This document shows, piece by piece, positions 298-41,031 of a stretch of DNA of 46,512 nt (position 1 is the first letter of the stretch; each line of letters opens with the position of its first letter). The stretch lies in the NCBI RefSeq assembly GCF_000758165.1, contig NZ_JNUP01000063.1, positions 1 to 46,512 on the forward strand, written 5' to 3'. The notes under the pieces were generated by a model. The model was not told where the DNA came from, did no database searches, and saw only the letters and a program-made list of their open reading frames with translations. The translations under genes were made by a program, and so were the position numbers. Source of the DNA: Spirochaeta lutea (lineage in GTDB: Bacteria > Spirochaetota > Spirochaetia > DSM-27196 > Salinispiraceae).

Positions 298-1245
298 TCA
301 GAGAGGGACTTTGTACCTGGCCGCGATATCTTCTGCGGCCCGGCGGATCGTGTCGCGTAAATGATTGGGCTTCAACACCTCCACGAACTGTCCGAAGGAC
401 AGGATGTAGGCATAGAGACTGCCGTCCTCGGGCATTCTGGTGGTTACCACCATGCTGCCGTCGGGTTGGATATTCCGGGTTTCCTCAGGATAGTATTCTT
501 CCACCAGGGGAATCATCTCTGGGAGAAACCGTAGATGGAGGTCGACCATGACACCTGTTCCGGACCATAGGGGATTCTCGGCGATGTAGGCCTCCAGGGG
601 CTTTTCCCGGCGCCGGAACTGTTCGGGAAGCACCATCGGATCCTTTATCCGGGATATCCGGAAGAGCCGGAAGTCCTTACGGAGCCGGCAAAATCCGTAG
701 AGGTACCAGGCCCGCCACCGGAAGGCAATGGTCATGGGTTCGATGATCCGCCGGGTAGTCTCCAGTTTGTTACTGGTGTAGCCGAATTCGATGAGGTGCT
801 GGCGGTCCACGGCGTCCTTCACAATGCGAAAAACCTCCCGGGAACGGGGATCTCCCCCGAGCATGGAGAAATCAATGGAGAGTTTTTCCGTGCGCTGGGA
901 TAGGATATCCCCGGTTTGCACGGGCACCAGAGACCGCATCTTCTCCAGAGTGTCGCTAACGGTCTTGTCCGACAGGGTGTCGCTCACCCCCTGCAACGCC
1001 GTGAGAATGTTAAAAAAATCATCCGTGGTAAGCAGCTGGCGGTCCATTTTATACGAGTTCATAATACCGTAACCCCCGGCTGATCCCTGGAGGGCGTAAA
1101 TCGGAATGCCCGCAAGGTCGATGGTCTCCAGGTCACGCTGAATGGTTCTGACAGATACACCGTAGCGTTTGGCCAGGGTATTGGCGCTTACCAGTTCATG
1201 GTTGAGCAGGTACACGATGATGGATAACAGGCGGTCAATCTTCAT
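298..1245 (-). CDS. WYL-domain transcriptional regulator (YafY-like)
   Basis: The protein has 315 residues from the chosen ATG. The N-terminus (MKIDRLLSIIVYLLN) starts an HTH_11-type winged helix, with the recognition region VSVRTIQRDLETI. The central and C-terminal parts fit a WYL ligand-sensing domain (FRWRAWYLYGFCRLRKDFRLFRISRI) and the C-terminal WCX extension. WYL regulators typically bind small ligands or nucleic acids and act as repressors or activators. A longer frame extends upstream, but this start fits the family and overlaps the end of the upstream synthase gene by 11 bp, which suggests translational coupling. It is the last gene of the 9980-298 operon and could regulate it, although the target is not shown by sequence. 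Confidence 0.85.
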   Translation of the reverse strand: MKIDRLLSIIVYLLNHELVSANTLAKRYGVSVRTIQRDLETIDLAGIPIYALQGSAGGYGIMNSYKMDRQLLTTDDFFNILTALQGVSDTLSDKTVSDTLEKMRSLVPVQTGDILSQRTEKLSIDFSMLGGDPRSREVFRIVKDAVDRQHLIEFGYTSNKLETTRRIIEPMTIAFRWRAWYLYGFCRLRKDFRLFRISRIKDPMVLPEQFRRREKPLEAYIAENPLWSGTGVMVDLHLRFLPEMIPLVEEYYPEETRNIQPDGSMVVTTRMPEDGSLYAYILSFGQFVEVLKPNHLRDTIRRAAEDIAARYKVPL

Positions 1246-4138
1246 GGGGTGTTGTTTCTCCCGGGCCATCAGTTTGGGATTGGAATCCCTTACGTGGAGG
1301 CTGTTTCCACCCTTGTTCTTTGAAGATGTAACGGATGAAACTCCAGACACGGTGCATCCCGAACAGTTGTCGGTACCCGAAATTCTCTATAATGGAAGCG
1401 CCGAGTACCCTGCGGAAGTCTCGGCCTCGAAAATAGAGTACATTCTTATCGGCTACCAGTAGACTCATCATGGAGATGAAGGTACCCAGTCCAACGGACA
1501 CCGCGAACAACAAGGCTAGGGTTGGTAGGTTGGCAATACCGAGTAGAACCGCTAAAAATGCAGCCAGATATCCCCCGGTTTCCAGAAAGGGACCAAGAAG
1601 CTCAAAAATAAAGAAGTAGGGCAGGGAAATCAAACCCGGTACGCCCTGGGGCCGGCGGAGGAGCATATCCTTATGGATCATTAATACCTCCATGAGTCCC
1701 CGGTTCCAGCGGTCGCGCTGAATGAGCAGGGAGGGTAGATGTTCCGGCACCTCTGTCCAGCAGTTAGCGGTGTGGACGTATTGCACACGGTGCTTTATTC
1801 CCTTTGAGTACAGGTGTTTGCGCAATCGAACCACTATTTCCATATCTTCTCCGACAGTGTCTAAATGCCGGGGACCAGAGCCGGTCAGGTATCCGCCGAT
1901 TTCTAAGACTGCTTGGCGCTGGAACGCTCCGAAGGCACCGGAAATTATCAGGAGACCGTTTATCCCTGCCCAACCCATCCTGCCGATAATAAAGGCTCGT
2001 AGGTACTCCATGGTTTGGATGAGAGCCAGGGGATTCCTTGGAGGGTGGATTTCCCGAATGGATCCTTTGGAAACCAGACAGCCGTTCACCGGGACAATAT
2101 TGCCTCCAATAGCCAGGGTTATTTCGTCCGTATCTAGGGTGGAACGCATGAGGTGCAACAGGGATTTCGGTTCCAGGAGAGAATCCGAGTCTATGCATAC
2201 CACGTAATCTCCCTGAGCCTGAAGAATGCCTGCATTCAGGGAATCTGCCTTGCCGCCGTTGACCTTGTCCACAACCGTAAGATCCTTGGATACCCTGCTT
2301 TTGTACACCCCCATGATGGGTGCAGTAAGTATGGGAATTGATCCCTGGGAAGACCGATCATCCCTGGGTTCCAGGTCAAATTCCTGCTGGAGTACCCCGA
2401 GTGTTCTGTCCTTTGAACCGTCGTTCACTACAATTACTTCAAAATCTGGGTACTCCAGGTTCAACAAGGATTGTACACTCTGTACAATGGTGGTTTCTTC
2501 ATTGTAACCCGGAGCTATGATGCTTACCTTGGGCAGGACACCGGGCTTGGCAAAGAAACCAGACTCCTGCCAGTGGTGAACCCGGTTCTTTTTTGATGCG
2601 CTAACCATGGAAATCACCAAAAAAACCAAATAGCTACCATTTATGGCGAGACTGTACCCGATAAAGGACCGTTGATAGAACACAAGAAAGGCCTCAATAC
2701 CCCCGGTAATGGCCCCCAGGGAAACCAGTAGGGCGAACAGAGCCGGTAGTAAACTCAGTGTCCCCAGTGCCAGTAGTGAGAGAAGAATTCTGTCGGACCA
2801 ACCCAGCCGCTTACGGGAAAGGACCGGTGGTTCGGGATTCCCTGTGATTCCGAGGCTTTCTTTTGCCTTTGGCCTAAGTAGGCGGCGGCAGTCTTGCGCG
2901 AAATCGGGGTCTTCGATCATAGCTTGGGTAATTACATCCTTTAGGCTGAGAACATCCTCTTGGGAAGACAGGCTGTTTATCAGCCGAATGACTGCACTAC
3001 GGCGTTGTCCAGCGATGAGCACCCGAATCAGAAGCGCCAGGTCGGTTTGCTGGTATCCCTGGATTCGTTGGCGTCCATGGAGGAGGATATAGGAGAGTGA
3101 GGGCTCAAGAATTCGGGCGATTCCTATCGCCCGGCGAAATCCTACGTGGCTGGCGTCCCTTGAGGTTTCGGGGATGGGCGCTATAGCCTGGCGGAGCCGG
3201 ACTATAAGCTCAGTAAGCAGGCTTGGATCTCGACGAATATAAGCGGTAAAGGATCCTGCAAGCAGATCGCTAAGCTCTGGAAAACTCAGCCAGCCTTCCA
3301 GGGTCTGCCAAGAGGGTCTGCCTTGGCTCCTCAGCAGGGCCTTGACCCCGATACGCCGCACCTCGGCAGAAAATAACGCCTGGTTGGGTGTTTCTGAAAA
3401 GATCCAGGGATGAAACTGCCCGCACATGAGTGCCGCATTTCGGTGTACCTCACGCGCCGGGTACAGCAGCAGGGGAATGAGATAACTTCGGGCCTCTTCG
3501 GGGGTACAACAGGGTATTCCCACCACCCCTATCCGTTTTGCCAAGGGGGTGGGGGGGATCTGCTGGCGGCGATACCACCGGTAGGCGGTTTGGGGGCAAC
3601 CTTCTAAGAGTCGGGCCAGCCGGGTCTGCCACCGTTCCGGGGCTTGGGAAAACCGCTGGTGAAGGCGATCAATGTCAATACTCTGCATATCTCCTGAATC
3701 AACCAAAACGCTCGTAATCCGTATAAGTAATGACCACGGTCCTTGAGTTTGTTCTACTACCTGTCGAGCTATCCGGACCCGGTCTTGCCGCGGTAGGAGC
3801 ACTAGGAGGGCAGCGGCTTCCCGTGGTCTTGTGTAGCCTCTGGAGTAAAAGAGTTTTTCTATTCTCTGGGTGAATGTGTCGCCCAGGGTTGAAACAGGCA
3901 GCCTGATGTGGTCTCGTATCCGGCTGAGAAATCGATTCCTCCCTTGTTGTGATGGAGAGTATTTGGGCAGGCTACCCAAGTCACGGTTCGCCATAGCCTG
4001 AGCGATCTGGGAAAGTATCCTACTCTGTCGAAGGTAGAGCCCCCGGGATGTTGATTTCGAGATGATTAGTCCTACAAAACCGGCAACATTTAGTACTATG
4101 AAGGAGGCTGTCAGGATGTATTCCAGGGTACTAAACAT
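1235..4138 (-). CDS. Processive family 2 glycosyltransferase with large helical N-terminal region
   Basis: This 967-residue membrane protein is expected to polymerise a polysaccharide from a nucleotide sugar and move it across the inner membrane. One membrane segment at about 8-27 precedes a soluble, Leu/Arg-rich, HEAT-like helical region (about 60-440), two segments (about 450-512), the GT2 catalytic domain (about 535-815) and C-terminal segments (about 838-895). All processive GT2 signatures are present: DGS 573-575, DSDS 650-653, GED 763-765 and QRDRW 807-811. PgaC/NodC-type enzymes are usually 400-450 residues, so the N-terminal half is the unusual part. GGAGG lies 8 nt before the ATG, inside the previous gene, which it overlaps by 8 bp. 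The polymer cannot be told from sequence. Confidence 0.9.
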   Translation of the reverse strand: MFSTLEYILTASFIVLNVAGFVGLIISKSTSRGLYLRQSRILSQIAQAMANRDLGSLPKYSPSQQGRNRFLSRIRDHIRLPVSTLGDTFTQRIEKLFYSRGYTRPREAAALLVLLPRQDRVRIARQVVEQTQGPWSLLIRITSVLVDSGDMQSIDIDRLHQRFSQAPERWQTRLARLLEGCPQTAYRWYRRQQIPPTPLAKRIGVVGIPCCTPEEARSYLIPLLLYPAREVHRNAALMCGQFHPWIFSETPNQALFSAEVRRIGVKALLRSQGRPSWQTLEGWLSFPELSDLLAGSFTAYIRRDPSLLTELIVRLRQAIAPIPETSRDASHVGFRRAIGIARILEPSLSYILLHGRQRIQGYQQTDLALLIRVLIAGQRRSAVIRLINSLSSQEDVLSLKDVITQAMIEDPDFAQDCRRLLRPKAKESLGITGNPEPPVLSRKRLGWSDRILLSLLALGTLSLLPALFALLVSLGAITGGIEAFLVFYQRSFIGYSLAINGSYLVFLVISMVSASKKNRVHHWQESGFFAKPGVLPKVSIIAPGYNEETTIVQSVQSLLNLEYPDFEVIVVNDGSKDRTLGVLQQEFDLEPRDDRSSQGSIPILTAPIMGVYKSRVSKDLTVVDKVNGGKADSLNAGILQAQGDYVVCIDSDSLLEPKSLLHLMRSTLDTDEITLAIGGNIVPVNGCLVSKGSIREIHPPRNPLALIQTMEYLRAFIIGRMGWAGINGLLIISGAFGAFQRQAVLEIGGYLTGSGPRHLDTVGEDMEIVVRLRKHLYSKGIKHRVQYVHTANCWTEVPEHLPSLLIQRDRWNRGLMEVLMIHKDMLLRRPQGVPGLISLPYFFIFELLGPFLETGGYLAAFLAVLLGIANLPTLALLFAVSVGLGTFISMMSLLVADKNVLYFRGRDFRRVLGASIIENFGYRQLFGMHRVWSFIRYIFKEQGWKQPPRKGFQSQTDGPGETTPHED

Positions 4139-5912
4139 GGCTGACGCCTCCGGTCAGGTGGGTAATCAGGCCTGGCAACTCCTCGAGAATCAACGGCTTT
4201 CGGAGGATGGAAAAGATTCCCCGGCGGTGAAGCTCTACAACCACATTCTCTGAAAGTTCGTGGCTCATAAGAATAACCGGTATTCCTGAAGTCTCCGGGC
4301 GGCTCTCTAGGCTGTCATAGAGGGTTATGATGTCAGTACCCGAATGGTACAGCTCGCTGAGAATTATATCGGGTTTAAAGGTCTCAATTTCAGGAATAAT
4401 GGTTTCGGCCCGGAACTCGGTACGGCACTGAAACCCCCGGTTAGTTAGATAGGTGGTGAGCATTCGTGCTACTAGGGATTCTGATTCCAGGATTAATACC
4501 CGGATGGTAACCTCCGACGCCGCAATATCCGCGGTTTCCAGGTCGCCGGTACTGGTTTTGTCCCCACCCTGGCGGATGGCGGATTCGAGTCTGGCAGCTC
4601 CCAGGGTTCGGAGGCTTTGTACCGGATCTCCAGCCCGATGCTGGACCTGAGATGTCTGGATCACCCCGGCTGAACACGTAACTGGCCTGATGAATGCTCC
4701 GGATTCCCTAACCTCCCGCCGGATGGTATCCGCCAACCCTGCAGCCTCAGCCACACCGCAATGGGGAACAAGTAGTCCGCAAACCGGTCCGGCAAGGCGA
4801 AAGACCATGGCCGTTTCGGGTTTCTCGCTCCGTATAATGTGGGCGAAGGACCGAATAGCAGCATTACCTTCCTCATACCCAAGTTGGGAATTAATAGCTG
4901 TGAGATTATCCAGGTGCAACAATATGACTGTACCCTCCTGGGGATGTTCCTCAACAAAGAGGGGAAGGTACTCATTAAAAAATTCCTCATTATACAGCCC
5001 TGTTGCCTCGTCCCGGATTCCCTCGTCCTGGAGTAGGATGAGATCCTCCTGTAATTCAAAATTCTGTTGCTGGAGGATCTGTAACTCCTGAATTACCCGG
5101 TTGAGGTTTTGGCCCTCTCCCACTGCAACCTCCCTGAGTTTGTCAGGCAGGGTTACAGTTTTGACCGTCAGGGTTTCTCGAATTGTAAGGGGATTCGAAT
5201 GCCAGATGCTCCCATAGCGCGGGCACACCCGGTTGATGGTCTGGGGCTCATAATCCCCGGCAGGGGATAGCTGGCACAGGGTATCCACCCAGGATGGATC
5301 GGAAAACTGCTGGGTGTAGGAAGCCAAGCCCGCCTCCGCCCGGGGAACTTTCTGGTTCCTGAGATCCACATCAAAGGGCAGATCCCTGCCCATAGAACCC
5401 ATTGCAGGACCTGAGAACAGGGTGCCCGTGGTTATATCCACCAGGGCTATCAATCCCTGGGAATAGCTGCGGGACAGGAGTATGTGGATTAATCTTCGAC
5501 CCTCGGGAAGTACTATATTCTGGTTGACCCTGCTCAAGTGTCGATATTCTAAAGCCGGTTCATGGAGTAGTACGGAGGTCCGCCAGTGGCAGTACACCTC
5601 TGGCTTTTCCGAACCTCCTCTCAGACGGATCAGCTCATTCAGCCCGCCGGCCGCCCCGGGATCTTGTCCTGTCAGAGCTACCTGCCATTGCCTGATTTTC
5701 TCTGGAATCTCCAGGTGTTCAAAAAGCCGATCCATAGCCTGGGCGATGTCTGGGATCCCGGGGGTTGGGCCCGGATCTATCACCAGGATGGTGGAGCCGT
5801 CTACTACGGCATAGGTATTCACGGGGAGAAAGTCTTCTCTGCTCCATCTTCCAAGCCAAAACACATCATCGGTTATCATCTGAGGGCCGGTTCCTGGTCT
5901 CGAATTATTCAT
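4131..5912 (-). CDS. Degenerate MBL / GGDEF / receiver three-domain protein
   Basis: 593 residues. Residues 12-240 resemble the metallo-beta-lactamase-like domain of flavodiiron proteins (FLPVNTYAVVDGSTILVIDPGP; GTLFSGPAMGS). The expected HxExDH ligand motif reads GQDPGA (82-87), so no metal site is apparent. A coiled linker (about 260-297) leads to a GGDEF-like domain (298-420) whose signature is AGPVC (374-378) instead of GGDEF, so cyclase activity is unlikely. A receiver-like domain (468-588) has Glu520 at the usual phospho-Asp position and an altered acidic pocket, but keeps Ser550 and Lys572. I infer a non-catalytic scaffold or ligand sensor controlling the adjacent synthase. An AAAGGA site precedes the ATG, and the gene overlaps both neighbours by 8 bp. 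Confidence 0.8.
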   Translation of the reverse strand: MNNSRPGTGPQMITDDVFWLGRWSREDFLPVNTYAVVDGSTILVIDPGPTPGIPDIAQAMDRLFEHLEIPEKIRQWQVALTGQDPGAAGGLNELIRLRGGSEKPEVYCHWRTSVLLHEPALEYRHLSRVNQNIVLPEGRRLIHILLSRSYSQGLIALVDITTGTLFSGPAMGSMGRDLPFDVDLRNQKVPRAEAGLASYTQQFSDPSWVDTLCQLSPAGDYEPQTINRVCPRYGSIWHSNPLTIRETLTVKTVTLPDKLREVAVGEGQNLNRVIQELQILQQQNFELQEDLILLQDEGIRDEATGLYNEEFFNEYLPLFVEEHPQEGTVILLHLDNLTAINSQLGYEEGNAAIRSFAHIIRSEKPETAMVFRLAGPVCGLLVPHCGVAEAAGLADTIRREVRESGAFIRPVTCSAGVIQTSQVQHRAGDPVQSLRTLGAARLESAIRQGGDKTSTGDLETADIAASEVTIRVLILESESLVARMLTTYLTNRGFQCRTEFRAETIIPEIETFKPDIILSELYHSGTDIITLYDSLESRPETSGIPVILMSHELSENVVVELHRRGIFSILRKPLILEELPGLITHLTGGVSHV

Positions 5913-8094
5913 GCAATTCCTTTCCCGTAGGGTATCTACGGTTAACCTGGGTGAGTTGCTTTGTCAGTACCAGGCGTTTTTGGGTTGTACCGGATTCCAA
6001 AACTGCGAAGGAACTCGCAAGCTCCTGGATTATGAAGCGTCCGTACCCCCGTTCGTGGTAATGTTCCAGAGGATTTTCCGGTACATCCTGCCAATCGTAG
6101 CTGTCGCCATGATAATCAATACAAATCCACAGGTTGTAATCGTCCCATGCTAAGATCAGGGGTACCTCCTGGGAATCCGGGGACACCGTTTCGTTGTGGT
6201 CGGCAATATTCGTTAACCCCTCATGAGCGGCTAACACAAGTTCTTGAATCGGTTCCTCCTCATCCGGATGGGCTGCTAAAAAAACGGACGCGATGCCTTG
6301 GCGGATATCTGCCAAAGCTGGGAGGGTTCGATCCCATTGAAGGATGGTTTGATCTCTACCCCGGCACTTCTGATCCAATTGAATACAGATCACCGTCACA
6401 TCATCGGTGAATCTTCCGCCGCTGTGCAATAGGGCTTGGTTAGATAGGCCGTGGATTAATTCACGGGGTGTCGGGGGCTGGTGTGTGACGACATCCATAC
6501 GGCTGTGAAGGTACTCCTGGATTCCTCGGGTATCAAAGGGGACGTCAGCCTCGTCATCAGCTTCGGTCAACCCGTCAGAATAGAATACGAGCAGGTCGCC
6601 CGGATTTAGCGGCAGGCTATGATGCCGGTATTCTTGGCTGCCCGAGAAACCGATGGGCATATTTGATCCCTTAATTTGCCAACAGGTAGCCTTCCGGGAA
6701 TCCCAGTAAATGACGGGGGGGTGACCACAATCTACAAAATCTAGGTGGTGGGGGTCTTGATAGAACCGAGCATAGTTTAGGGTTATGAATTGGTTTATTG
6801 CGATTAAATCTGGGGATATGCGGTCATTCAGGGAGTCAATGATCCGCGTAATTCCCGGTAGCATGGAGCTGACGTTCTCCGGGAGTAGGGTAGTACCGCT
6901 CCCTCCCTCCTGGTCAGTCTGAATGAGACCGAGGATGACCCGGTACACCTGGGACCGTGTTGCAGCTCCTAACAGGGACGCGGCAACACCCTTGCCCATA
7001 ACATCTCCGATCATAAGATCCAAGGTTCCTTTCTGACCGGGGATGGCATCATAAAAGTCTCCGTCCACCTCTTTACTCGGGAGGGTCATACCCGCAAGGG
7101 TCAGGTTGCCGTACGTGATATCTTCAAAACCCGATAGAAGCGCCTTTTGAATCCGGGCGCTCAGAAGAATCTCCATATCCCGGGCCTCAACCAACTCTGT
7201 CTCTCTGGCCTTTTCAGCTGTTATATCCTCTACAATGCCGAGGTAGGTGTGTATGTTACCCTGGGAGTCCCGTCTTGGTAAGGTTCGTATCTGAACCCAA
7301 CCCGATTCCTGGGTACGGACCTGGAGGTTCAGGGATATGTCTGTCCCGGCAGATTCGCTGCAGGTTTTTATAAAATCTTGCCGGTCATCGGGATGGATCC
7401 AACCTACCCAGCTCCAGGGGCTTGGATCGGTTATCTGAGGATGAGTTTTTAGAATTCCGGAGGTATAGGATAGAGGATGGGTAAGATCTCGAGAGAGTAT
7501 TATATAATCCTGGCCGAGCTGAGAACTTACCAGTTCCGCGTCCTCGGCCGACAGGATTAGTCCAAGATCCTTCCAGAATTCCTGTATATAGCCGAGCACC
7601 GTATCCAAGATTACCCCGAATACTGCAGCAACCCCATCCCTATGCCCATAGGAATTTTGCCAGTACCCTAAGATTCCCCCTGTACTACCACCCCGAGTGT
7701 GGTGGAGTAAGATCCACTCCCCATCCTCTTCCGGCACCTGCCATCCCAAGCCGTGAGCGAGTTCCTGAAACATTCCTGGGACGGGTGAATCAGTGGAATT
7801 GCGTTCTTCTTCTGATGGAGAGCAGATGATCACCTCACCGGAAAGAACAATGCGCGAAAGAAAGTGGTCCGTTCCCTGAAATCCTATCAGGGGTCTACCA
7901 TTGCCCGGTAGTACGAGGCCCCACTGGGGATTATTCTCTGGATAGGCATAAAGCCCGAGTTGCACACATTGGAGAGCGTTTCCCATCTCCCGTATGAGCT
8001 GATCCATGATCTGAAGGGTTTCCCGCTCCGCTTGGCGGCCCATGATGCTACTGAGTTTCGAGATATTCTGCCAAATCCTACCCGGTGATACCAT
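5905..8094 (-). CDS. RsbU-type PP2C phosphatase fused to RsbW-like kinase domain, with PAS
   Basis: 729 residues. The order is a GAF-like N-terminal region (about 20-175), PAS (about 190-295, ending GIVEDIT), a SpoIIE/PP2C phosphatase (about 325-575) with metal-binding motifs VDGDFYD (343-349), GDVMGKG (363-369), DGLTEA (507-512) and DDVTV (564-568), and a GHKL ATPase of the RsbW type (about 590-715) with N-box HEGLTNIADH (624-633) and glycine motif GYGRFI (683-688). Known relatives dephosphorylate (PP2C) or phosphorylate (RsbW-like) a STAS-domain partner. That partner is encoded directly upstream and overlaps this gene by 17 bp, so this protein may set its phosphorylation state in both directions. 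No strong ribosome-binding site is seen, consistent with coupled translation. Confidence 0.88.
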   Translation of the reverse strand: MVSPGRIWQNISKLSSIMGRQAERETLQIMDQLIREMGNALQCVQLGLYAYPENNPQWGLVLPGNGRPLIGFQGTDHFLSRIVLSGEVIICSPSEEERNSTDSPVPGMFQELAHGLGWQVPEEDGEWILLHHTRGGSTGGILGYWQNSYGHRDGVAAVFGVILDTVLGYIQEFWKDLGLILSAEDAELVSSQLGQDYIILSRDLTHPLSYTSGILKTHPQITDPSPWSWVGWIHPDDRQDFIKTCSESAGTDISLNLQVRTQESGWVQIRTLPRRDSQGNIHTYLGIVEDITAEKARETELVEARDMEILLSARIQKALLSGFEDITYGNLTLAGMTLPSKEVDGDFYDAIPGQKGTLDLMIGDVMGKGVAASLLGAATRSQVYRVILGLIQTDQEGGSGTTLLPENVSSMLPGITRIIDSLNDRISPDLIAINQFITLNYARFYQDPHHLDFVDCGHPPVIYWDSRKATCWQIKGSNMPIGFSGSQEYRHHSLPLNPGDLLVFYSDGLTEADDEADVPFDTRGIQEYLHSRMDVVTHQPPTPRELIHGLSNQALLHSGGRFTDDVTVICIQLDQKCRGRDQTILQWDRTLPALADIRQGIASVFLAAHPDEEEPIQELVLAAHEGLTNIADHNETVSPDSQEVPLILAWDDYNLWICIDYHGDSYDWQDVPENPLEHYHERGYGRFIIQELASSFAVLESGTTQKRLVLTKQLTQVNRRYPTGKELHE

Positions 8095-8428
8095 CCAGGG
8101 CGCTCCTGCGGTCAGTATAGACCGGTGCCATTTGATTCAGCCGGACGATCTTAAAGAGTGTGGCTACTGCACTGCTTTGTGCGGTTACCGCCATACTTCC
8201 CCCAGACTGCTTAACCTGGCGTATGCCCCCGAGAATTTTTCCCAGACCTGAACTGTCAATGAACTGAACCTTTTCCAGATCCAGAAGAAAGGGTTTTCCG
8301 GGGTAGGTTTTTAATGCCTCGGTTATCCCGGCTGTGAGGGTTTGTTGAAACTGAAGAGCGACCGAGGCGTCGATCTGGGATAGTTGTGGTTCTAAAACTA
8401 CAACACCGTTTTGGATTACAATGTTCAT
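8078..8428 (-). CDS. STAS-domain anti-sigma-factor-antagonist-like protein
   Basis: A 116-residue single STAS domain. The SpoIIAA/RsbV signature FIDSSGLGKIL is intact. By alignment with SpoIIAA the phosphorylatable serine is Ser60, in the DSSG sequence at residues 58-61. Such proteins bind a partner (anti-sigma factor or target enzyme) when unphosphorylated. The chosen ATG lies 4 bp after the GH16 gene stop and removes a 12-residue upstream extension that does not fit the family. The gene overlaps the phosphatase/kinase gene. No sigma factor gene occurs in the window, so the output is probably not a locally encoded sigma factor. The nearby synthase or the degenerate three-domain protein are candidate targets. 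Confidence 0.9.
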   Translation of the reverse strand: MNIVIQNGVVVLEPQLSQIDASVALQFQQTLTAGITEALKTYPGKPFLLDLEKVQFIDSSGLGKILGGIRQVKQSGGSMAVTAQSSAVATLFKIVRLNQMAPVYTDRRSALDGITG

Positions 8429-8432
8429 ACAC

Positions 8433-9221
8433 CTAGTATAGGGGGGTATACCGGATATCTTCAATGATAATCCCTAGGGCCCCGTCATTCTCAGGGGGCT
8501 GACCCTGGAAGAACCAAAGATTGGTGTGCAGATGAGGGGTTGCGGGAACGGGGACAGGATTTCCAGTGATGGTTTTTTTCCAAATCCAGGATTCGCTGTC
8601 CTGAGTTTCTTCAAGATGTACTGAAAAATCCACCTTACCCGGGTGCCATTGAAACTCTAGGACGAAGGTTCCCCACTGGCGTGGAGGTAATGTTGAGATG
8701 GAATTACCTTCCTTGGAGCTTGGCTGGATCGAAACGTGCACCCAGGGAGTTCCTGGGGAGCCAAAGTAGCCCAGTTCAATATCGATTTCTGAATGGTACT
8801 GGGATGGGTTTTGGTCATAGGTAAAAAAGCCGAAAATCAACCGACTATCCAGCCCCGGTTCGTCAATCCGGAGGCGGATCCGATAGGAACCATAGCCCAC
8901 GGGCTCTTGGCTGATTATCTCGGTGGAGAACCATCGGTTCCGGGAGGGGTGTTTTACCGCGGATAGCTGCAACTCATTTCGTTGAGATTGCTGGATACCC
9001 TCTATTTCTTGAGGCATTAACAAGGCCACACCGTCCCCATCCATAAAATAATTGGGTCCTGGACCCTCCTTCCCCTGGGATCGTCGAACCGTCCATTGAG
9101 TACCTGCAAAGCTGATTGTACGTTCCTGGGTATACGCCGGTTCCACGGTACCTCCAAGAAGACCAACAACTGCCAGAACGAAAGTGATAAGTCTAACCTT
9201 CTGGTTCCCCTGTACATCCAT
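8433..9221 (-). CDS. Exported GH16-family glucanase-like protein
   Basis: 262 residues with a signal peptide (about 1-32: KVRLITFVLAVVGLLGG, then VEPAYTQ). The GH16 catalytic sequence HSEIDIELGYFG places the predicted nucleophile Glu145, Asp147 and acid/base Glu149 in the ExDxE arrangement of lichenase-type GH16 enzymes. GH16 members hydrolyse or transglycosylate beta-glucans and related polymers, and some act on polymers produced by their own host. The gene lies between the barrel protein and the STAS gene, with gaps of 3 and 4 bp and a GGGGAG ribosome-binding site. In this operon it probably trims or modifies the exported polysaccharide in the periplasm or at the surface. Substrate specificity is not deducible. 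Confidence 0.82.
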   Translation of the reverse strand: MDVQGNQKVRLITFVLAVVGLLGGTVEPAYTQERTISFAGTQWTVRRSQGKEGPGPNYFMDGDGVALLMPQEIEGIQQSQRNELQLSAVKHPSRNRWFSTEIISQEPVGYGSYRIRLRIDEPGLDSRLIFGFFTYDQNPSQYHSEIDIELGYFGSPGTPWVHVSIQPSSKEGNSISTLPPRQWGTFVLEFQWHPGKVDFSVHLEETQDSESWIWKKTITGNPVPVPATPHLHTNLWFFQGQPPENDGALGIIIEDIRYTPLY

Positions 9222-9224
9222 GGG

Positions 9225-9980
9225 TTATGACTCCCCGGTTAGGCTTATCTGGTGTGTTTGGAAGTGTACTCTGCCCTGGCGATACTCCCGAGTGTACTGG
9301 TACCCCAGGCGCCACCCGTCCCAAGGCTTGATGCCGAAGCCGCCGAATACCGATACCTTGGTTTGAGGACCCTCCGCTCGGGGCAAAATTGATCCGAAAT
9401 TTCCTCCGGCTGTTATATCAAGCCAAGAAACGGGAGCGAGTCGTACCCAACCGGCAACAGTGAGGTCTGTGGGCTCCAAGGCTGAGAATCCGGCGTATCC
9501 GCGTAGGGTCGCATTCAACCAAGATAATCCCGTAAGGGTGGCCCCACCGCTTACCAGGAGGCTTCTGTTGCCTTGGGGAATAAAGTCCCAGCTCCCGGAA
9601 AGGGATGCCATGAGGTAATACGTAGCTTGTTCAAAGAAGAGATCCATGTACAACTGGTTGTGTACAATCCTTTCGGAACTCAAGCCGATTCCCCAACGGG
9701 CGGTAGAATAAAATGGTCCGCCCCACACCCACAGAGCCCCCATTTCCACGGTATGGCGGTACCAATTCCCCCGGTCCGCTCTAGCTAGGGATGTGTAGAG
9801 CTTCAGGCTGTTCACTGGAATGTATACATATGCCAGATTGTCGCTGAATACTATTCCATCGTCCTTGGGCATTAAGTCCTGGGTTATGCCGAACTGTACC
9901 TGCCCGATAACCGGACTGGTTCCCAGAGCTATGCATGCGGTCAGAACCAATACATACATCCGGGATCGATACCTATTCAA
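9225..9980 (-). CDS. Exported beta-barrel-like outer-membrane protein (YaiO-like)
   Basis: 251 residues from a TTG start at 9978-9980. This start has AGGGGG 6 nt upstream and supplies a basic signal-peptide n-region (NRYRSRM) before the hydrophobic core YVLVLTACIALG; an internal ATG at 9957-9959 is possible. After cleavage near VIGQ the sequence is a series of alternating amphipathic, aromatic-rich strands (ALWVWGGPFYSTARWGIGL; VSVFGGFGIKPWDGWRLGYQYTREY) ending in HQISLTGES, as expected for a small outer-membrane barrel. It resembles the YaiO type in style only. As first gene of the polysaccharide operon it could form the outer-membrane exit or anchor. Confidence 0.68.
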   Translation of the reverse strand: MNRYRSRMYVLVLTACIALGTSPVIGQVQFGITQDLMPKDDGIVFSDNLAYVYIPVNSLKLYTSLARADRGNWYRHTVEMGALWVWGGPFYSTARWGIGLSSERIVHNQLYMDLFFEQATYYLMASLSGSWDFIPQGNRSLLVSGGATLTGLSWLNATLRGYAGFSALEPTDLTVAGWVRLAPVSWLDITAGGNFGSILPRAEGPQTKVSVFGGFGIKPWDGWRLGYQYTREYRQGRVHFQTHQISLTGES

Positions 9981-10063: not shown

Positions 10064-11566
10064 TCAGACCTCGTCTAATTCCAGGCTGGGCAGATTCCGG
10101 ATGGTCAGGGGGTGCACCGCCCCGGGGCCGATCCCCGCCTCCATTCGGATCTGGAAGTCGGGCCACAGATCTCGGGGCACATAGGCCTGGATGGTACCCC
10201 CGAAACCCCCGCCGTGCACCCGGCTGACCACCCTGTTCTCCCAGGGCGGCTGGCTTGTAAGGAGTAGCGCCAGGGCGTAGTCCTGGTTTTCCCTCTGGTC
10301 TACCACGTTCTGCAGGTACTCGAAGGAGCTATGGCCTGATTCCCGGACCAGGGCCAAAAATGCCTCTATATTCGGTTTCCTAACGTGGGTTGATTCTCCA
10401 AGGCCGGTTTCTTGACCCTCCTTGGATGGGGGGGGCGCCATTGGGAATTCCGGTTCTTCCGCGGCTCCCCTTGGAGTAGCGCTTGTTCCTCCTGAAATAC
10501 CGTCAGCACCCGCTGCGGCGTCCGTGCCTCCGCGAAAAACGGTCCCGGTCCCAGGTCGATTGATCCCCGGGGCATCCCCCGCGAGGCTCTGGAACATCCG
10601 GGTAACCCGCTGGTTCTCCTGGAAAAAATGTCCGGCCCGGCAGAGGGCCCTTCCGGGCAGCCGGGTGCGCAGGTCAGGTAGAGCCGTCCAGAAATCCCGG
10701 GGATCTATCTGCCCCAGTACCTCCCGCCCCAGGGCCTGAGCCACCAGTTTCATCTCCCGGGGAATGGCAGCGTAGTCGGCTGTCCCGGCGCTGTGGTCGC
10801 TTTGGGTGTCAACAATGCAGAGTTGGTACCCCAGGGCGTTAAAATCCACCTCCAGCCCCTGGATGCCCGGATTCTGGGGATCGGCGAAATCCAGCATAGC
10901 CAGGCCTCCCAGGCTGCAGGCAAGCTGGTCCATGAGCCCGCTGGGTTTACCGAAAAACCGGTTTTCGGCGAACCTTCCGCACAGCGCCCGCCCCACGGCT
11001 CCGAGCTTGCCGGCGTTGTAAAGTCTATCGAGGATGGTAGCCAAGAGTACCTCGATGCAGGCTGAGCTGGATAATCCCGATCCGGGCAGGACGCGGCTGT
11101 CCACCGTGGCATAGAATCCCCCCAGATTCAGGTTCTGATTGCTAAACCAGGCAGCAGTACCGCGGATCAGGGCTTCGGTGGTTCCCTCCTCTGCCCTTTG
11201 GGGATCAAGATTCCCCAGATCGAGATGGTATTCCCGGTTCAGGGTGGTGCTCGTCAGGATGCAGCGCAGATCACCCGTGCCCAGGGGGGTAACGGCGGCC
11301 ACGGCGTCCAGGGTTACCGAACCGGCCAGCACCCGGCCGTGGTTGTGGTCGGTATGGTTTCCCCCGATTTCCGTGCGCCCCGGGGTGGAAAAGAGGCGGA
11401 TCTCCCCCGCGGCGCCGAAGCGGTCCCGGTGGCGGGAAACAAGGTCCGCATACCGCCTGCGCTGCCCGGCCGTCTCATCGTCTGGGTAGAGCCGTTGCAG
11501 GCTTTGATCCAGGGTGCCCCGGGTTATGTAGGTTTCCAGGTCCTGGGGGGTTCGGGGAATCGACAT
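10064..11566 (-). CDS. galK: Galactokinase with a low-complexity insertion
   Basis: 500 residues. It phosphorylates galactose to galactose-1-phosphate in the Leloir pathway. GHMP kinase motifs are clear: the galactokinase signature GRTEIGGNHTDHNHG (63-77), the ATP-binding LPGSGLSSSA (160-169) and the C-terminal HGGGFGGT (451-458). Galactokinases are usually 380-430 residues. The excess is a Gly/Ala/Pro/Thr-rich insertion at about 329-397, between the helical region and a normal C-terminal part. It lacks family features and looks like a flexible loop. The gene follows galT by 5 bp and shares its promoter at 12804-12832. Confidence 0.95.
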   Translation of the reverse strand: MSIPRTPQDLETYITRGTLDQSLQRLYPDDETAGQRRRYADLVSRHRDRFGAAGEIRLFSTPGRTEIGGNHTDHNHGRVLAGSVTLDAVAAVTPLGTGDLRCILTSTTLNREYHLDLGNLDPQRAEEGTTEALIRGTAAWFSNQNLNLGGFYATVDSRVLPGSGLSSSACIEVLLATILDRLYNAGKLGAVGRALCGRFAENRFFGKPSGLMDQLACSLGGLAMLDFADPQNPGIQGLEVDFNALGYQLCIVDTQSDHSAGTADYAAIPREMKLVAQALGREVLGQIDPRDFWTALPDLRTRLPGRALCRAGHFFQENQRVTRMFQSLAGDAPGINRPGTGTVFRGGTDAAAGADGISGGTSATPRGAAEEPEFPMAPPPSKEGQETGLGESTHVRKPNIEAFLALVRESGHSSFEYLQNVVDQRENQDYALALLLTSQPPWENRVVSRVHGGGFGGTIQAYVPRDLWPDFQIRMEAGIGPGAVHPLTIRNLPSLELDEV

Positions 11567-11571
11567 GGTGG

Positions 11572-12642
11572 TTATCCTTTCGGGGTGGAATTGTTAGGGT
11601 GATTCGAATGCTCCCGGTAGTGCACCTCCTCCTGGGACCGGAGAATTTCAGCACTCTGCTCCGGGGTTATATCCCGTTGGGGCATCGCCAAAAGCTCATA
11701 CCCCACCATAAACTTTTTCACATCAGCACTGCGCAGCAAGGGCGGCAGGTAGTGCATATGAAATGTCCAATGGTCCATATTCCCCGAGTTTACCGGGGCC
11801 TGATGCAGACCCATGGAGTAGGGGAAGTCGGTTTGAAAGAGGTTGTCATACCGGATACCCAGGCGGCGGATAAGGTCAGCCAGGGCGGTAATCTGGGATT
11901 CGGTACATTCCCGGATGTCCCGGATCTGGGTTTTCGGCAGCACCATGGTTTCGTAGGGCCAGACAGCCCAGTAGGGAACCAGGGCTGCAAACTCATCGTT
12001 CTGGCAGACAATCCGTTCCCCGGTTTCCAGCTCCCGGGCCAGGTAATCCATGAGCAGATTGCTGCCGTGTTCTCCGCGGTAGGCCCGCTGTCTACTGTCC
12101 TCCCTGGCCGGGATGTCCGGCAGGCAATCCTCTGCCCATATCTGGCCGTGGGGATGGGGATTTGAGCATCCCATGGTACTGCCGTGGTTTTCGAAGATTT
12201 GAATGTGGCGGATCCACCGGTGGCCTGCCAGTTCCTCGTATTCATCCCGCCAGAGCCCCACAACCCCTTCAACCTCTCCCTGACTCATCCGCGGCAGGGT
12301 TAGGTCGTGGCGGGGACTAAAGCAGATAACCTTGCAGATTCCCCGTTCTGCCTGGGCCTGAAACAACCCGGCTTGGATATTACCCAGGGGGGTATCGGCC
12401 AGAAGAGCCGAATAGTCGTTTACAAAGCTGTAGGTTTCGGTATACCGGGGATTCTCAGCTCCCCCGGCCCGGGTGTTCCCCGGACATAGGTAACAGCCCG
12501 GGTCGTAGGAGGGGCGGTTCTCCGGGACGGCGGATTCCCTGCTTCCCTGCCAGGGGCGTTTGGTCCGGTGGGGGCTGACCTTCACCCATTCTCCGCTTAG
12601 GGGGTTAAATCGCCGGTGGGGCTGGCTGTAAAGCTTCTCCAT
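11572..12642 (-). CDS. galT: Galactose-1-phosphate uridylyltransferase
   Basis: 356 residues. It exchanges UMP between UDP-glucose and galactose-1-phosphate. The active-site sequence [11 protein letters not shown] with its His-Pro-His nucleophile motif is present, preceded by [13 protein letters not shown], and the N-terminal cysteine pair (CYLCPGN) fits a structural metal site. The start at 12642 ([14 protein letters not shown]) has AAGGAG 5 nt upstream. A longer frame begins 54 bp earlier, inside the palindromic element, and is less likely. galT leads the galT-galK operon. Its 5' leader contains a complete 106-bp palindromic element. Confidence 0.96.
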
Positions 12643-12668
12643 GCAAACTCCTTGTTCATGGGTGATCA

Positions 12669-12774
12669 TAGTGCGCAAACGATTGTAACTTTTCATGCCC
12701 TAGACACCATCCCTGGGCCTGGTTCCCGGGATGAGCCGCTATATCTGGTGTAGGTTACAACCTTTTGCGCACTA
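12669..12774. repeat. Full-length palindromic element, copy A (galT leader)
   Basis: A 106-bp element bounded by TAGTGCGCAAACGATTGTAA at left and its near-exact inverse at right (TTACAACCTTTTGCGCACTA), with an inner inverted pair GACACCA/TGGTGT. The left end is 26 bp upstream of the galT ATG, and the galTK promoter lies on the other side, so the element should be transcribed as part of the galT leader. Unlike three other full copies, its flanks show no direct repeat. It shares orientation with the copies at 18214, 20372 and 46329. Confidence 0.9.
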
Positions 12775-20371: not shown

Positions 20372-20476
20372 TAGTGTGCAAAAGGTTGTAACTTTGCACC
20401 CCGGCGACACCACCCATGGGTGGAATCATTGATTGCTCCGCTATATTTGGTGTGGTTTACAACCTTTTGCGCACTA
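20372..20476. repeat. Full-length palindromic element, copy C (intercistronic)
   Basis: 105 bp, left end TAGTGTGCAAAAGGTTGTA, right end the inverse with CGC. The flanks 20361-20371 (TATGAATAATA) and 20479-20489 (TATGAACTATG) match at 8 of 11 positions, again with two bases between the right edge and the repeat. The left end is 31 bp from the symporter ATG. The right terminal repeat contains the stop codon and final codons of the upstream gene. Confidence 0.93.
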
Positions 20477-21947
20477 GGTATGAACTATGACTTACTTCTG
20501 CCGGACCGGCCGCGGCTCCGGCACGCGCCAGTGCCGCCTGGACAACCCGGTAGGCTCCATTATAGATCCCCTGGGTATGGGCAGCCAGAATGCTCCGGTT
20601 CATGAGCTCCAGAGCCCTGCCGTCCTCCAGCATCAGCCCCAGGAACTGGGCAGCATCCTGGGGACGCCGGCATTCCGGAGTGCTGTCTCCCAATTCCGCT
20701 CCATGGATGGCTCCCCAAGCCTCGTGCCCCCCGATTCTCCGGATCATGAGCTTGGGAATGGGGTAGAAGGACAGCTCGCTGGGTTTGGTAACCAGGACAT
20801 CGCAGTGGGGCATGAGGCTGTTGGTGAGGTACACCCCGGAATAGATCTCCGGGCTGTAGTATACCCTGTGGATGCCCGATCCTGGGGGCGTTTCGGAAGA
20901 ACGGCCCTCCATCAGCTCGGCGGATATGTTCATGTCTGCCAGTCCTGCCGCTACCTGGTCCCGGACTCCCCGGTGATCCCCCACATTGATATGCAGCTCG
21001 ATCCGCCGCGATCGTACCGCTTCGGCTACCCGGTCGATAAGCTGTAAATAAAAATCCGCCTGGGCTCCGGCCCCGCCCACGGTCATGAGAAGCCGCAGGG
21101 GTTCATGGTTCTTCAGCCGCTCCAGCCGTCGAGCTGTGGAGTCTTCCAGGGTGGAGACCAGTTCATTATCGATATAATGGCCGGTATATAGGACATCATC
21201 CCCCGGCATGGGATGCAGAAGCTGCCCGGGACGGGGGCCCATACCCCGGAGGCTCCGGTACCCCCAATAGGCATGGGGGGTCTGGACGGTGTGCAGGCTG
21301 CCCTGGGCCAGGTGCAGCGCCATAGGCCAGTTATCGGGAACAACATTGACCACCCCGGTCATACCGGCGTGAATCGCTGCCTGGGCGGGCCACACATGGG
21401 TAGCCACCACCGGCACATCCTTGGGCAAACCCTCCCACACCGGTGCATAGAGTCGGGCGGTTTCCTGATCGATGGCATTGTAACTGAGTTTTCGAAACGC
21501 CTTGCTGTTCAAGGGCTCCCAATACAGCCGGTTGAACAGGGCCGAGCGCTGGGAAAGCCTGCTTCCCAAGGAATACAGACTGTTCAGATGGCCGATAACC
21601 TTCCCAGCGGTGGTCTGGGTCTGGGCATGAAGGTCGAACCAGTAGGGCACCAGCCCCTGGGAAGCCGCAGCCGAGGCTATGGCCATAGAAATCCGGAAGT
21701 GACCGTAGCCCATCCGGATGGTTCCGATAATGATAGGATGAGGTTTCAAGGTGATTCGACTGTCTCCGGGTTCTGCAGCAATTCCTGTGCATCCCCATAG
21801 CTCCCCTAAAACCGGCAGGGGAGTGCAGCGTAACCCCAGGGGACCGTCCTGACCGAATTTCCGGGCAAAGCGCCGCCGGGTATTCCGTGCCCGGCGTGTT
21901 ACTCGGTGAGAGACAGGGTTTCCGAAAATATGGGTTGGGTTTTCCAT
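20457..21947 (-). CDS. GT28/MGDG-synthase-like protein with element-derived C-terminus
   Basis: 496 residues. After a basic, probably flexible N-terminus (1-65), the sequence GTIRMGYGHFRISMAIASA resembles the N-terminal glycine loop of GT-B glycosyltransferases of the MurG/MGDG-synthase group. A second region (LRLLMTVGGAGAQADFYLQLI; HCDVLVTKPSELSFYPIPKLMI) resembles their donor-binding domain. Activity and acceptor are unknown. AGGAGG 5 nt upstream supports the ATG. The last six residues and the TAA stop (within TTGTAA) are read from the terminal repeat of the palindromic element at 20372-20476. It is divergent from the TetR gene and probably cotranscribed with the symporter. Confidence 0.7.
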   Translation of the reverse strand: MENPTHIFGNPVSHRVTRRARNTRRRFARKFGQDGPLGLRCTPLPVLGELWGCTGIAAEPGDSRITLKPHPIIIGTIRMGYGHFRISMAIASAAASQGLVPYWFDLHAQTQTTAGKVIGHLNSLYSLGSRLSQRSALFNRLYWEPLNSKAFRKLSYNAIDQETARLYAPVWEGLPKDVPVVATHVWPAQAAIHAGMTGVVNVVPDNWPMALHLAQGSLHTVQTPHAYWGYRSLRGMGPRPGQLLHPMPGDDVLYTGHYIDNELVSTLEDSTARRLERLKNHEPLRLLMTVGGAGAQADFYLQLIDRVAEAVRSRRIELHINVGDHRGVRDQVAAGLADMNISAELMEGRSSETPPGSGIHRVYYSPEIYSGVYLTNSLMPHCDVLVTKPSELSFYPIPKLMIRRIGGHEAWGAIHGAELGDSTPECRRPQDAAQFLGLMLEDGRALELMNRSILAAHTQGIYNGAYRVVQAALARAGAAAGPAEVSHSSYLVRKRL

Positions 21948-28764: not shown

Positions 28765-29706
28765 TTGCAGCAGGCCGAGGCTCTGCTCTACCACGAGGCT
28801 GAAGACTACCGGCCCCGGGATTCCCGGGGAGAGTCCGGGGGTCTGGTGGAGTTGGACCGGGAGCTTCCGACCCTGATTGTTCCGGATATTCACGGCCGTT
28901 ACGGTTTGGTGTTGGCCCTGTTGGGTCTGGAACTGGACGGCAGGGGGCCGGTCTTGGAGCAGATTCATGCGGGGCAATTGCAGCTGGTATGCCTGGGTGA
29001 TTATGTCCATGCCGAGGGACGGGCTTCCCGGCGGTGGCAGCTGGCCTTGGATGAGTTTATAGGGGGATTCAAACGCCATGCTAACATGGATGCCGAGATG
29101 CGGGAGAACCTGGTGACCGTAGCAGTCCTGCTCACCCTGAAAATCGCCTTTCCCCGGAGCGTTCACCTACTCAAGGGAAACCATGAGAACATCCTGAATG
29201 AGAACGGCAGGGGAAACCTGCCCTTCGGAAAATACGCCTATGAGGGCGCCATGGTGCTGGAATGGATGCAGCAGTTCTATGCTCCGGAGGTTCTGGCATC
29301 CTTCGCCAGGGTGGAGCACGGATATCCCCTTCTGGCCCGGGGCAGGGGGTTCCTTATCAGCCATGCCGAACCCAGGGAGTTCTTTTCGCCCCGGGAGGTA
29401 ATCGATTACCGGGATAACCACTCCCTGATTTTAGGTCTGACCTGGACCGACAACGGGAGGGCCCGGGAGGACAGTGTTTCCCGGATGCTGGAGGAGTATC
29501 TGCCCAGTGATGAGCTGCCGGGTTGGTATTTCGGGGGCCACCGTCCTGTAGCCGAGGATTTCGCCCTCCGGGCCGGGGGACGCTTTGTTCAATTTCATAA
29601 CCCCGGCCGCCGGCAGATTATCCGGGTACATGCCGGGGGTGTTTTTGATGCCCACAAGGATATAATCACCCTAGATAACCAGAACGAAGAAACCGCAGAA
29701 GGATAG
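28765..29706 (+). CDS. PPP-like metallophosphoesterase (probable protein phosphatase)
   Basis: 313 residues from the first standard in-frame start, TTG at 28765. Calcineurin-like motifs are in order: VPDIHGRY (39-46), LGDYVHAEG (77-85), GNHEN (about 138), SHAEP and GGHRP. They match PPP phosphatases, except that the usual GDxVDRG has become GDYVHAEG, losing the Asp-Arg pair. The open frame continues upstream with coding-like composition (PEILNRVQSLTDG, LPEEGAYLALLQQ) to the previous gene's TAA at 28633, but has no ATG, GTG or TTG there. A rare start such as ATT or CTG is possible. The gene ends 3 bp before the kinase gene, so it may remove phosphates placed by that kinase. Confidence 0.82.
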   Translation: MQQAEALLYHEAEDYRPRDSRGESGGLVELDRELPTLIVPDIHGRYGLVLALLGLELDGRGPVLEQIHAGQLQLVCLGDYVHAEGRASRRWQLALDEFIGGFKRHANMDAEMRENLVTVAVLLTLKIAFPRSVHLLKGNHENILNENGRGNLPFGKYAYEGAMVLEWMQQFYAPEVLASFARVEHGYPLLARGRGFLISHAEPREFFSPREVIDYRDNHSLILGLTWTDNGRAREDSVSRMLEEYLPSDELPGWYFGGHRPVAEDFALRAGGRFVQFHNPGRRQIIRVHAGGVFDAHKDIITLDNQNEETAEG

Positions 29707-29709
29707 GAT

Positions 29710-31638: not shown

Positions 31639-31683
31639 GTACTAGTCCGAGGATTGACGGCGGAATATGGGAGGATGAACGGT

Positions 31684-39802: not shown

Positions 39803-40999
39803 CTAGGAGGTTACCGCTACAGGAAGAACCTCCAGGGCGATGAGGGTGGAATCATCCTTAAAGTCCGGACTGCCCAAACTCATAAGAAATCCCTTGGCGA
39901 GGGCCTTGGCTGAAAGGGGACCGGCGGAGTTACGCAATAGGGTTGTCATCATCTGTTCCCTGCTCAGGCGTTTCTGTTGGCTCTCGTCCTCAATTAACCC
40001 GTCGGTCAGGAGGACAACCCGGTCGCCGGTCAGCAGGGGATAGTCAATATCTCGGTAGCGGCTGGACAGCATAATTCCCGGTGCAGGATCCTTACTGACC
40101 AGAGGAATGGCCGAATCGTCCCGGAGGACAAACACTGGAGGCTGCCCGGCGCTGCATACCGTAAGGGTATTGGTGCCGGGATCGATGACCATGGCTGTAA
40201 AGGCTACCAGGATGTCCCGGTTATCTCCCATGAGGGAACAGACTCCGCGGTTTAGGTGACTAACCAGGGCTGCGGGGCTGGGGGCATCCTCGGCGGGTTG
40301 GCCTGAATGATCCAGGAGGAAGCCCTGGTACAGGGTCTTTACCATCGCTCCCACCAAGGCAGGCTTTATGCCGTGACCCGATACATCGCCCAGAAGGATG
40401 AGCATACGGCCGTTGTCCAGGGGAACGATCTCATAGAGGTCGCCGCCAACCTGGTATTGATCCACCGGACGGTACCAGATATCGAAGCGGTACCGGCTGT
40501 CTTCGGGAATCTGTGCGGAGAATAGCTGCTGCTGGAACTGGGCGGCGTCCAGGAGCTGCTGTTTGAGCTGGGTTTCCATCCTGCGGTGTTCCCGCCGGAA
40601 CCGGTACATATCCCAGGCCTTGATGATCTCCGCCTGGAGTTGATCCGATGTCCATGGTTTGAAAATGAGTCCATGGATGGATGCAGACACTGCTTTTTGC
40701 AGATCTGGAAGGTCGGCATACGCGGTTAAGAGGATGGTAAGAATCTCAGGAAAATCACGGTGAACCCTCTCCAAGAGGTCGCTACCCCGCATGCGGGGCA
40801 TACGTAAATCACTGATAAGCAGGAATACCCGGTAGGATTCAGCCTCAAGGAAGTCCAGGCAGTTCAGGGAGTCGTCAAAGCCCAGGACGGCAAAGCCGAG
40901 ATGGTCTAAAGATAGACGAATCTCCCGCTCCAGGGCTCGGAGCACCTGGATATCATCATCCACTAATACCAGAAGTGGCTTGGATTGGCTCTGTACCAT
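39803..40999 (-). CDS. Receiver domain - PP2C phosphatase (RsbU-like response regulator)
   Basis: 398 residues. An intact receiver domain (about 8-125: VLVDDD pocket, Asp64 in ISDLRMP, LTAY, and KP at about 113) is joined by a coiled linker to a SpoIIE/PP2C domain (about 160-393: VGGDLYEIVPL, LGDVSGHG, TDGLIEDE, DDSTLIAL). Phosphorylation is expected to gate phosphatase activity on a STAS-type partner. The ATG at 40999 has GGAGG 6 nt upstream. It is divergent from a histidine kinase gene with only 32 bp between start codons, so the two are a likely cognate pair. Confidence 0.93.
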   Translation of the reverse strand: MVQSQSKPLLVLVDDDIQVLRALEREIRLSLDHLGFAVLGFDDSLNCLDFLEAESYRVFLLISDLRMPRMRGSDLLERVHRDFPEILTILLTAYADLPDLQKAVSASIHGLIFKPWTSDQLQAEIIKAWDMYRFRREHRRMETQLKQQLLDAAQFQQQLFSAQIPEDSRYRFDIWYRPVDQYQVGGDLYEIVPLDNGRMLILLGDVSGHGIKPALVGAMVKTLYQGFLLDHSGQPAEDAPSPAALVSHLNRGVCSLMGDNRDILVAFTAMVIDPGTNTLTVCSAGQPPVFVLRDDSAIPLVSKDPAPGIMLSSRYRDIDYPLLTGDRVVLLTDGLIEDESQQKRLSREQMMTTLLRNSAGPLSAKALAKGFLMSLGSPDFKDDSTLIALEVLPVAVTS

Positions 41000-41014
41000 T
41001 AAAGTCCTCCGCAC

Positions 41015-41020
41015 TATAAT
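41015..41020 (+). promoter_or_regulatory. -10 box for a possibly leaderless histidine-kinase mRNA
   Basis: A perfect TATAAT ends 11 bp before the ATG at 41032. The -35 match at 40992-40997 (TGTACC) is poor. No ribosome-binding site precedes the ATG, so transcription probably starts at or within a few bases of the start codon. Confidence 0.5.
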
Positions 41021-41031
41021 TTTTACCTAAG

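Follow-up and report, generated by a model that had tools for sequence, protein, structure and literature searches.

A seven-gene operon in Spirochaeta lutea (GCF_000758165.1) combines a processive GT2 synthase, an exported hydrolase and a predicted export barrel with a STAS protein, a PP2C/RsbW-like fusion and a protein with MBL, GGDEF-like and receiver-like domains, here termed MGR, and homologues of its synthase occur in several phyla. Among synthase-type biofilm polysaccharides, the best-studied ones depend on c-di-GMP for activation. The family described here retains that control architecture, a GGDEF protein beside the synthase, yet the catalytic motif is lost from every MGR found, and one spirochaete clade gained a STAS/PP2C module once and then retained it. 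We propose that MGR gates the synthase and that the STAS/PP2C switch was added in this clade, a scheme to which we give an even chance of being correct. All positions refer to the window, the 46,512-nt stretch of DNA that was analyzed (contig NZ_JNUP01000063.1, positions 1-46,512).

Composition of the operon and its polymer

An earlier note, made from the sequence alone, had claimed seven packed minus-strand genes and a polysaccharide operon run by partner switching. Open reading frames, junctions read from the sequence and Pfam assignments bear out the first claim: all seven genes lie on the minus strand in the proposed order, and neighboring genes either overlap or are separated by no more than 4 nt. 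The first gene (9225-9980; TTG start) encodes a 251-aa predicted outer-membrane beta-barrel with a signal peptide and is followed after 3 nt by an exported, lichenase-like GH16 (8433-9221) and after a further 4 nt by a STAS protein (8078-8428; ATG at 8428, earliest open reading frame start at 8464). The STAS gene overlaps that of a protein with a PAS-like region, a SpoIIE-type PP2C domain and an RsbW/SpoIIAB-like HATPase (5905-8094), which shares 8 nt with the MGR gene (4131-5912); MGR in turn shares 8 nt with the synthase gene (1235-4138), whose stop is overlapped over 11 nt by a WYL/HTH transcriptional regulator gene (298-1245; ATG at 1245). A scan for sigma-70-type promoters returned 7 sites (chance expectation 8.6), among them one chance-level site directly before the STAS gene, and thus lends no support to a promoter inside the operon; an independent promoter between the signaling genes and the synthase was a finding that the earlier note had named as contradicting it. 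The genes galT-galK (10064-12696, minus strand; Pfam) lie 83 nt upstream of the barrel gene and are putative members that could supply precursors.

One gene probably does not belong to the system. The WYL domain is clear (Pfam E 2e-18), but no WYL homologue was present in any other fetched synthase locus, which argues against the regulator as a system component, contrary to its earlier inclusion; it is probably a local addition confined to the window.

The synthase (967 aa) begins with an N-terminal TM segment. Its GT2 domain (residues 536-830; Pfam E 3e-22) carries all motifs of a processive enzyme (VVNDGS, DSDS, GEDM and QRDRW, corresponding to D, D, D, QxxRW) and is accompanied by a TM channel. 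In an AF2 model (pLDDT 86.9, pTM 0.88), the part from residue 487 onward aligns with hyaluronan synthases (Z about 25) and BcsA (Z 20-24), and chitin synthases are also matched. No PilZ domain was found on the protein with Pfam. Residues of about 64-430 (2849-3949, minus strand) form an all-alpha superhelix in the model and match, by profile comparison (Prob 97.8, E 1.3e-12), a separate spirochaete HEAT protein that adjoins short GT2s in other spirochaetes and itself scores 8e-21 with Pfam HEAT_2. The synthase therefore bears a HEAT-like cytosolic arm. In loci L012-L016, a short GT2 (about 440-570 aa) follows the gene for a free-standing HEAT arm; no MGR was found there, and these loci represent a split form of the synthase.

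The exported GH16 glucanase of the earlier note holds, as a lichenase-like protein. Taken alone, the protein reached 19.6 bits in Pfam, under the 22-bit cut-off; a profile built with its linked homologues returned, from the PDB, 11 matches that were all lichenase-type beta-glucanases (best E 6e-7), and the catalytic EIDIE motif is intact. The barrel candidate matched no Pfam family. It was, however, found (E 3e-8 to 3e-9) by a profile of barrels from beside homologous synthases that had been built with the window protein left out. This family occurs beside synthases in STAS/PP2C loci and in other spirochaete loci, and many relatives have the aromatic C-terminus typical of outer-membrane barrels, several ending in DWRF or DYKF, a BAM-type signal. 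The C-terminal residue of the window protein is not Phe, and its AF2 model (pLDDT 41) was too poor for a structure search, so support for the fold is indirect: the linkage of the family to synthases stands, and the barrel itself is a prediction.

The barrel family and GH16 are linked to the synthase in many loci, and many related loci also encode CE4 deacetylases. The S. lutea genome has two CE4 matches; one of its CE4 proteins (C64) was considered as an orthologue of these polysaccharide deacetylases and rejected. Among NCBIfam synthase models, PgaC (GlcNAc polymer) scored best, with 126 bits against a cut-off of 422. Given this best match and the CE4 genes of relatives, both a glucan and a GlcNAc polymer are possible products. 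Sequence and model evidence for the GT2, HEAT arm, GH16 and barrel family supports the operon as a synthase-dependent exopolysaccharide system that makes, exports and trims a beta-linked polymer of the cell surface.

In L024, L034, L061 and about 30 further loci (cluster c2), the synthase adjoins a protein of about 700-1180 aa with an N-terminal TM segment and strongly conserved motifs, GAYHIYPNYPDFMNN and GIIFEWMDEWAKKTWTTEP among them. This roughly 1,000-aa protein had no Pfam or PDB profile match, nor any match in the S. lutea genome in a search run without a positive control; it looks like an undescribed glycosidase-type enzyme.

The STAS/PP2C module in one spirochaete clade

A scan of genome contigs and searches of genomes at the phylum, class and order levels yielded 121 distinct homologous synthase loci from Spirochaetota, Bacillota, Mycoplasmatota, Fibrobacterota and Chloroflexota. 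STAS and/or PP2C/RsbW-like genes stood beside the synthase in 16 of these, all from Spirochaetota and spanning at least seven families (codes f1, f6, f13, f63, f64, f73 and f75); one of them (L022/L144) had STAS only. In the other 105, some of them short, neither gene was found alongside. Partner switching is thus excluded as a general property of these synthases. Synthases unlinked to STAS/PP2C, which the earlier note had accepted as counting against it, are the rule outside the clade; inside it the linkage holds, and its partner-switch reading survives for this clade.

The 16 loci formed one synthase clade in a 121-row tree (SH-aLRT 95) and in a 50-row tree (bootstrap 100, SH-aLRT 99), and in 200/200 bootstrap trees of the latter the presence of STAS/PP2C required a single change. 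Gene order (STAS-PP2C-MGR-GT2) is kept across the clade. Over 14 loci, distances among PP2C proteins and among MGR proteins tracked those of the synthase (Spearman 0.89 and 0.86, respectively; Mantel p 0.0005), indicating that the set travels as a unit. Since STAS/PP2C was co-inherited with the synthase through one clade, the association is more than a chance feature of a single genome, and these data support a coupled module.

Such a module could act on the synthase post-translationally, as we infer, or the STAS/PP2C pair could control a sigma or anti-sigma factor from another part of the genome that turns the operon on, the proximity of the pair to the synthase reflecting autoregulation. The latter, which we consider rather unlikely but the most serious competitor, fits classical RsbV/RsbW logic, and a remote sigma target is possible because the genome encodes 12 sigma-70 region-2 proteins, 7 STAS proteins and 9 SpoIIE-type phosphatase matches. 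Against it, no sigma factor gene was found in the operon (among nine proteins scanned with Pfam, the RsbW-like domain was the sole sigma/anti-sigma match), and the STAS/PP2C pair lies directly upstream of MGR-GT2 across the whole clade and diverges with it.

The window STAS protein (Pfam E 3e-12, also recognized by NCBIfam) has an intact DSSGLG phospho-site, and DS[ST]G is present in 12 of 14 loci; NSAGLG (NSAG) replaces it in L040 (1219-1563) and L145 (2380-2811), where a STAS protein without the usual phosphorylatable residue adjoins an intact PP2C. In the fusion protein, the SpoIIE domain (E 5e-35) keeps its metal-binding Asp residues, the motifs GDF, GDVMGKG, SDG/TDG and DDV being retained in all copies that hold the region. 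In the HATPase_c_2 domain of the same protein (E 3e-8), the N-box Glu and Asn are retained, but the G1-box Asp (reference RsbW 6m36) is replaced by Tyr or Phe in 15 of 15 copies, by Tyr in the window. The fold thus remains RsbW-like, and ATP-dependent kinase activity is doubtful. As a consequence, STAS phosphorylation is uncertain, and, together with the two STAS proteins lacking the phospho-residue, the loss suggests that an RsbW/RsbV-style cycle may not run. The earlier proposal that STAS phosphorylation controls synthesis is weakened by the G1-box loss; control by STAS dephosphorylation or by phosphorylation-independent binding is just as plausible.

The same losses could be read as decay of genes that accreted without function, the pair hitch-hiking on a mobile EPS cassette. 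A transfer is suggested by the trees: grouping the window synthase with its own order was rejected (AU p 0.013, for an alternative named after the first tree had been seen), and three other genomes of the window's own family, one of them 57% complete, yielded no synthase match. Transfer of the locus into the S. lutea lineage is the simplest reading of these data; the long branch of the window synthase makes its precise position within the clade uncertain. We nevertheless consider functionless accretion improbable, since selection is implied by the retention of PP2C metal-site residues and of most STAS sites throughout a deep clade whose synthases are about 40% identical.

The MGR adaptor and a proposed mechanism

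Across phyla, an MGR-type protein, in some cases partial, adjoins the synthase on the same strand in 105 of the 121 loci. What the earlier note had recognized as an inactive cyclase-like protein, one regulator among several, is therefore the general partner of the synthase. Pfam detects an ODP-type MBL domain (E 6e-8), a GGDEF domain (2e-14) and a receiver (7e-8) in the window protein, with a helical segment, predicted from sequence and comparable to the SiaD stalk, before the GGDEF part. Degeneracy of the last two domains is upheld, and the "MBL" of the earlier note is corrected to an ODP domain. In the window, the pseudo-GGDEF domain (4650-5015, minus strand) reads RLAGPVC at the catalytic motif and lacks an RxxD I-site, the pseudo-receiver (4173-4499) has Glu at the phosphoacceptor position (ILSELYHSGTD), and the ODP domain (5193-5822) reads GDGYPY where HDDHDH is expected, keeping one of six di-iron ligands.

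The first two losses are family-wide. None of the 105 MGR proteins contains GG[DE]EF, no RxxD I-site was seen in the aligned sequences, and the receiver Asp is usually lost, with Glu as acceptor in 91 of 105. Complete absence of the catalytic motif points to control through direct protein contact. These counts and the PilZ-free synthase make it very unlikely that MGR still makes or binds c-di-GMP to activate a BcsA-like synthase, with STAS/PP2C acting as in BgrSTUWV-BgrR, even though Pfam recognizes the GGDEF fold, the closest described partner-switch/beta-glucan case uses c-di-GMP (according to a reference cited in PMC8457831) and Sinorhizobium meliloti BgsA, which has no PilZ domain, binds c-di-GMP (PMC10374906).

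The ODP domains of intact MGR relatives align with the oxygen-binding di-iron protein 6qrq (3e-34) and share its HxDxD, H, D, H ligands. Like ODP (6qrq, 6qnm), many MGR homologues keep the full ligand set, and the family connects matrix synthesis in anaerobes with a domain that binds oxygen. They differ from these proteins in the fusion to pseudo-GGDEF and pseudo-receiver domains, and the window MGR and most others of the STAS/PP2C clade have also lost ligands. Using the longest version of each locus, at least five of six ligands were kept in 38 of 81 MGRs without PP2C and the site was intact in 2 of 15 with it (Fisher p 0.02, with no correction for shared ancestry). Mycoplasmatota and Rectinema-type loci that carry no module have lost ligands too, and a strict exchange of the iron site for STAS/PP2C was therefore rejected in favor of a trend. 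From the missing cyclase motif, the mostly Glu-bearing receiver and the window's single iron ligand, MGR is best read as an adaptor assembled from signaling domains and not as an enzyme. In several Acholeplasmataceae-type loci (L038, L039, L045, L059, L081 and L093), a PAS-GGDEF-type protein of about 300 aa follows the synthase, besides or instead of the pseudo-GGDEF partner, with RYGGEEI in L045 and L081.

In the scheme that we favor, MGR would dock on the HEAT arm and gate the synthase directly, taking the place of c-di-GMP and PilZ. The STAS and PP2C/RsbW-like proteins would have joined this system in the one spirochaete clade that includes S. lutea. There, the PP2C would be triggered through its N-terminal PAS-like region and dephosphorylate STAS, and unphosphorylated STAS would bind MGR and switch synthesis on. 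Binding to MGR is suggested by analogy, because SiaC acts on the SiaD stalk, HsbA on HsbD and BgrV on BgrR; either the pseudo-cyclase adaptor or the HEAT arm could be the target, most likely gating polymer synthesis in both cases. When MGR residues of clade members were compared with those of other loci, no clear STAS-binding signature emerged, and the idea of a STAS-specific signature in MGR was dropped. Since the window ODP domain has lost its iron site, the main input in S. lutea probably comes through the phosphatase branch. A wider generalization, which we put forward tentatively and think less likely to be right than wrong, is that across phyla a dead GGDEF/receiver protein with an ODP domain gates synthesis through contact with the HEAT arm in place of c-di-GMP, and that one clade largely swapped the oxygen input for phosphatase/STAS.

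Relation to known systems

No description of this gene set was found in the open-licence literature searched, in keeping with the earlier note, which knew of no system with the exact set. Within the same literature, a cyclase-dead ODP-GGDEF-receiver protein that is conserved as the partner of a HEAT-armed synthase appears to be undescribed, as does the clade-specific pairing of an MGR-synthase with a STAS/PP2C module. Partner-switch control of polysaccharides as such is already known from SypA/SypE (PMC4517449) and, as cited in PMC8457831, from BgrSTUWV, and STAS-type proteins that act on GGDEF proteins have precedents (PMC8457831, PMC5085249).

The S. meliloti BgrSTUWV-BgrR system, which controls a mixed-linkage beta-glucan (Baena et al., cited in PMC8457831), resembles the S. 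lutea operon in its partner switch, a STAS protein acting on a GGDEF protein and a GT2 beta-glucan synthase. The lichenase-like GH16 would fit such a polymer. BgrR is an active cyclase, whereas S. lutea MGR has no catalytic motif, adjoins the synthase and carries ODP and receiver domains fused to its GGDEF part. SypA and SypE of Vibrio fischeri are likewise a STAS protein and a kinase/phosphatase encoded within a polysaccharide locus, but the syp locus has 18 genes and SypE belongs to the response regulators; how the STAS protein acts there had not been worked out either (PMC4517449). The S. lutea operon provides a compact setting for the question of STAS protein targets in polysaccharide loci. 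In the Pseudomonas aeruginosa operon SiaABCD, a PP2C and a kinase-like protein occur together with the STAS-like SiaC and the GGDEF protein SiaD, to whose helical stalk SiaC binds (PMC8457831, PMC7647112). SiaD is an active cyclase, and the Sia kinase and phosphatase are separate proteins, unlike the PP2C/HATPase fusion of S. lutea. To our knowledge, the SiaABCD operon contains no synthase and the syp locus no MGR-type adaptor. With the BcsA/BcsB cellulose and PgaABCD PNAG systems, the operon shares a processive membrane GT2, an export partner and hydrolase genes, and it departs from them in the HEAT arm in place of PilZ, the MGR adaptor and the low PgaC score given above.

Elsewhere in the window, a receiver-PP2C (SpoIIE) protein adjoins a 7TM histidine kinase on the opposite strand (39803-42786), forming a second phosphatase signaling pair. 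A metallophosphoesterase, a Ser/Thr kinase and an FHA/VWA protein are encoded in tandem at 28765-34128, and a DUF6937-DUF6938 protein adjoins an MFS sugar-type transporter at 20457-21947.
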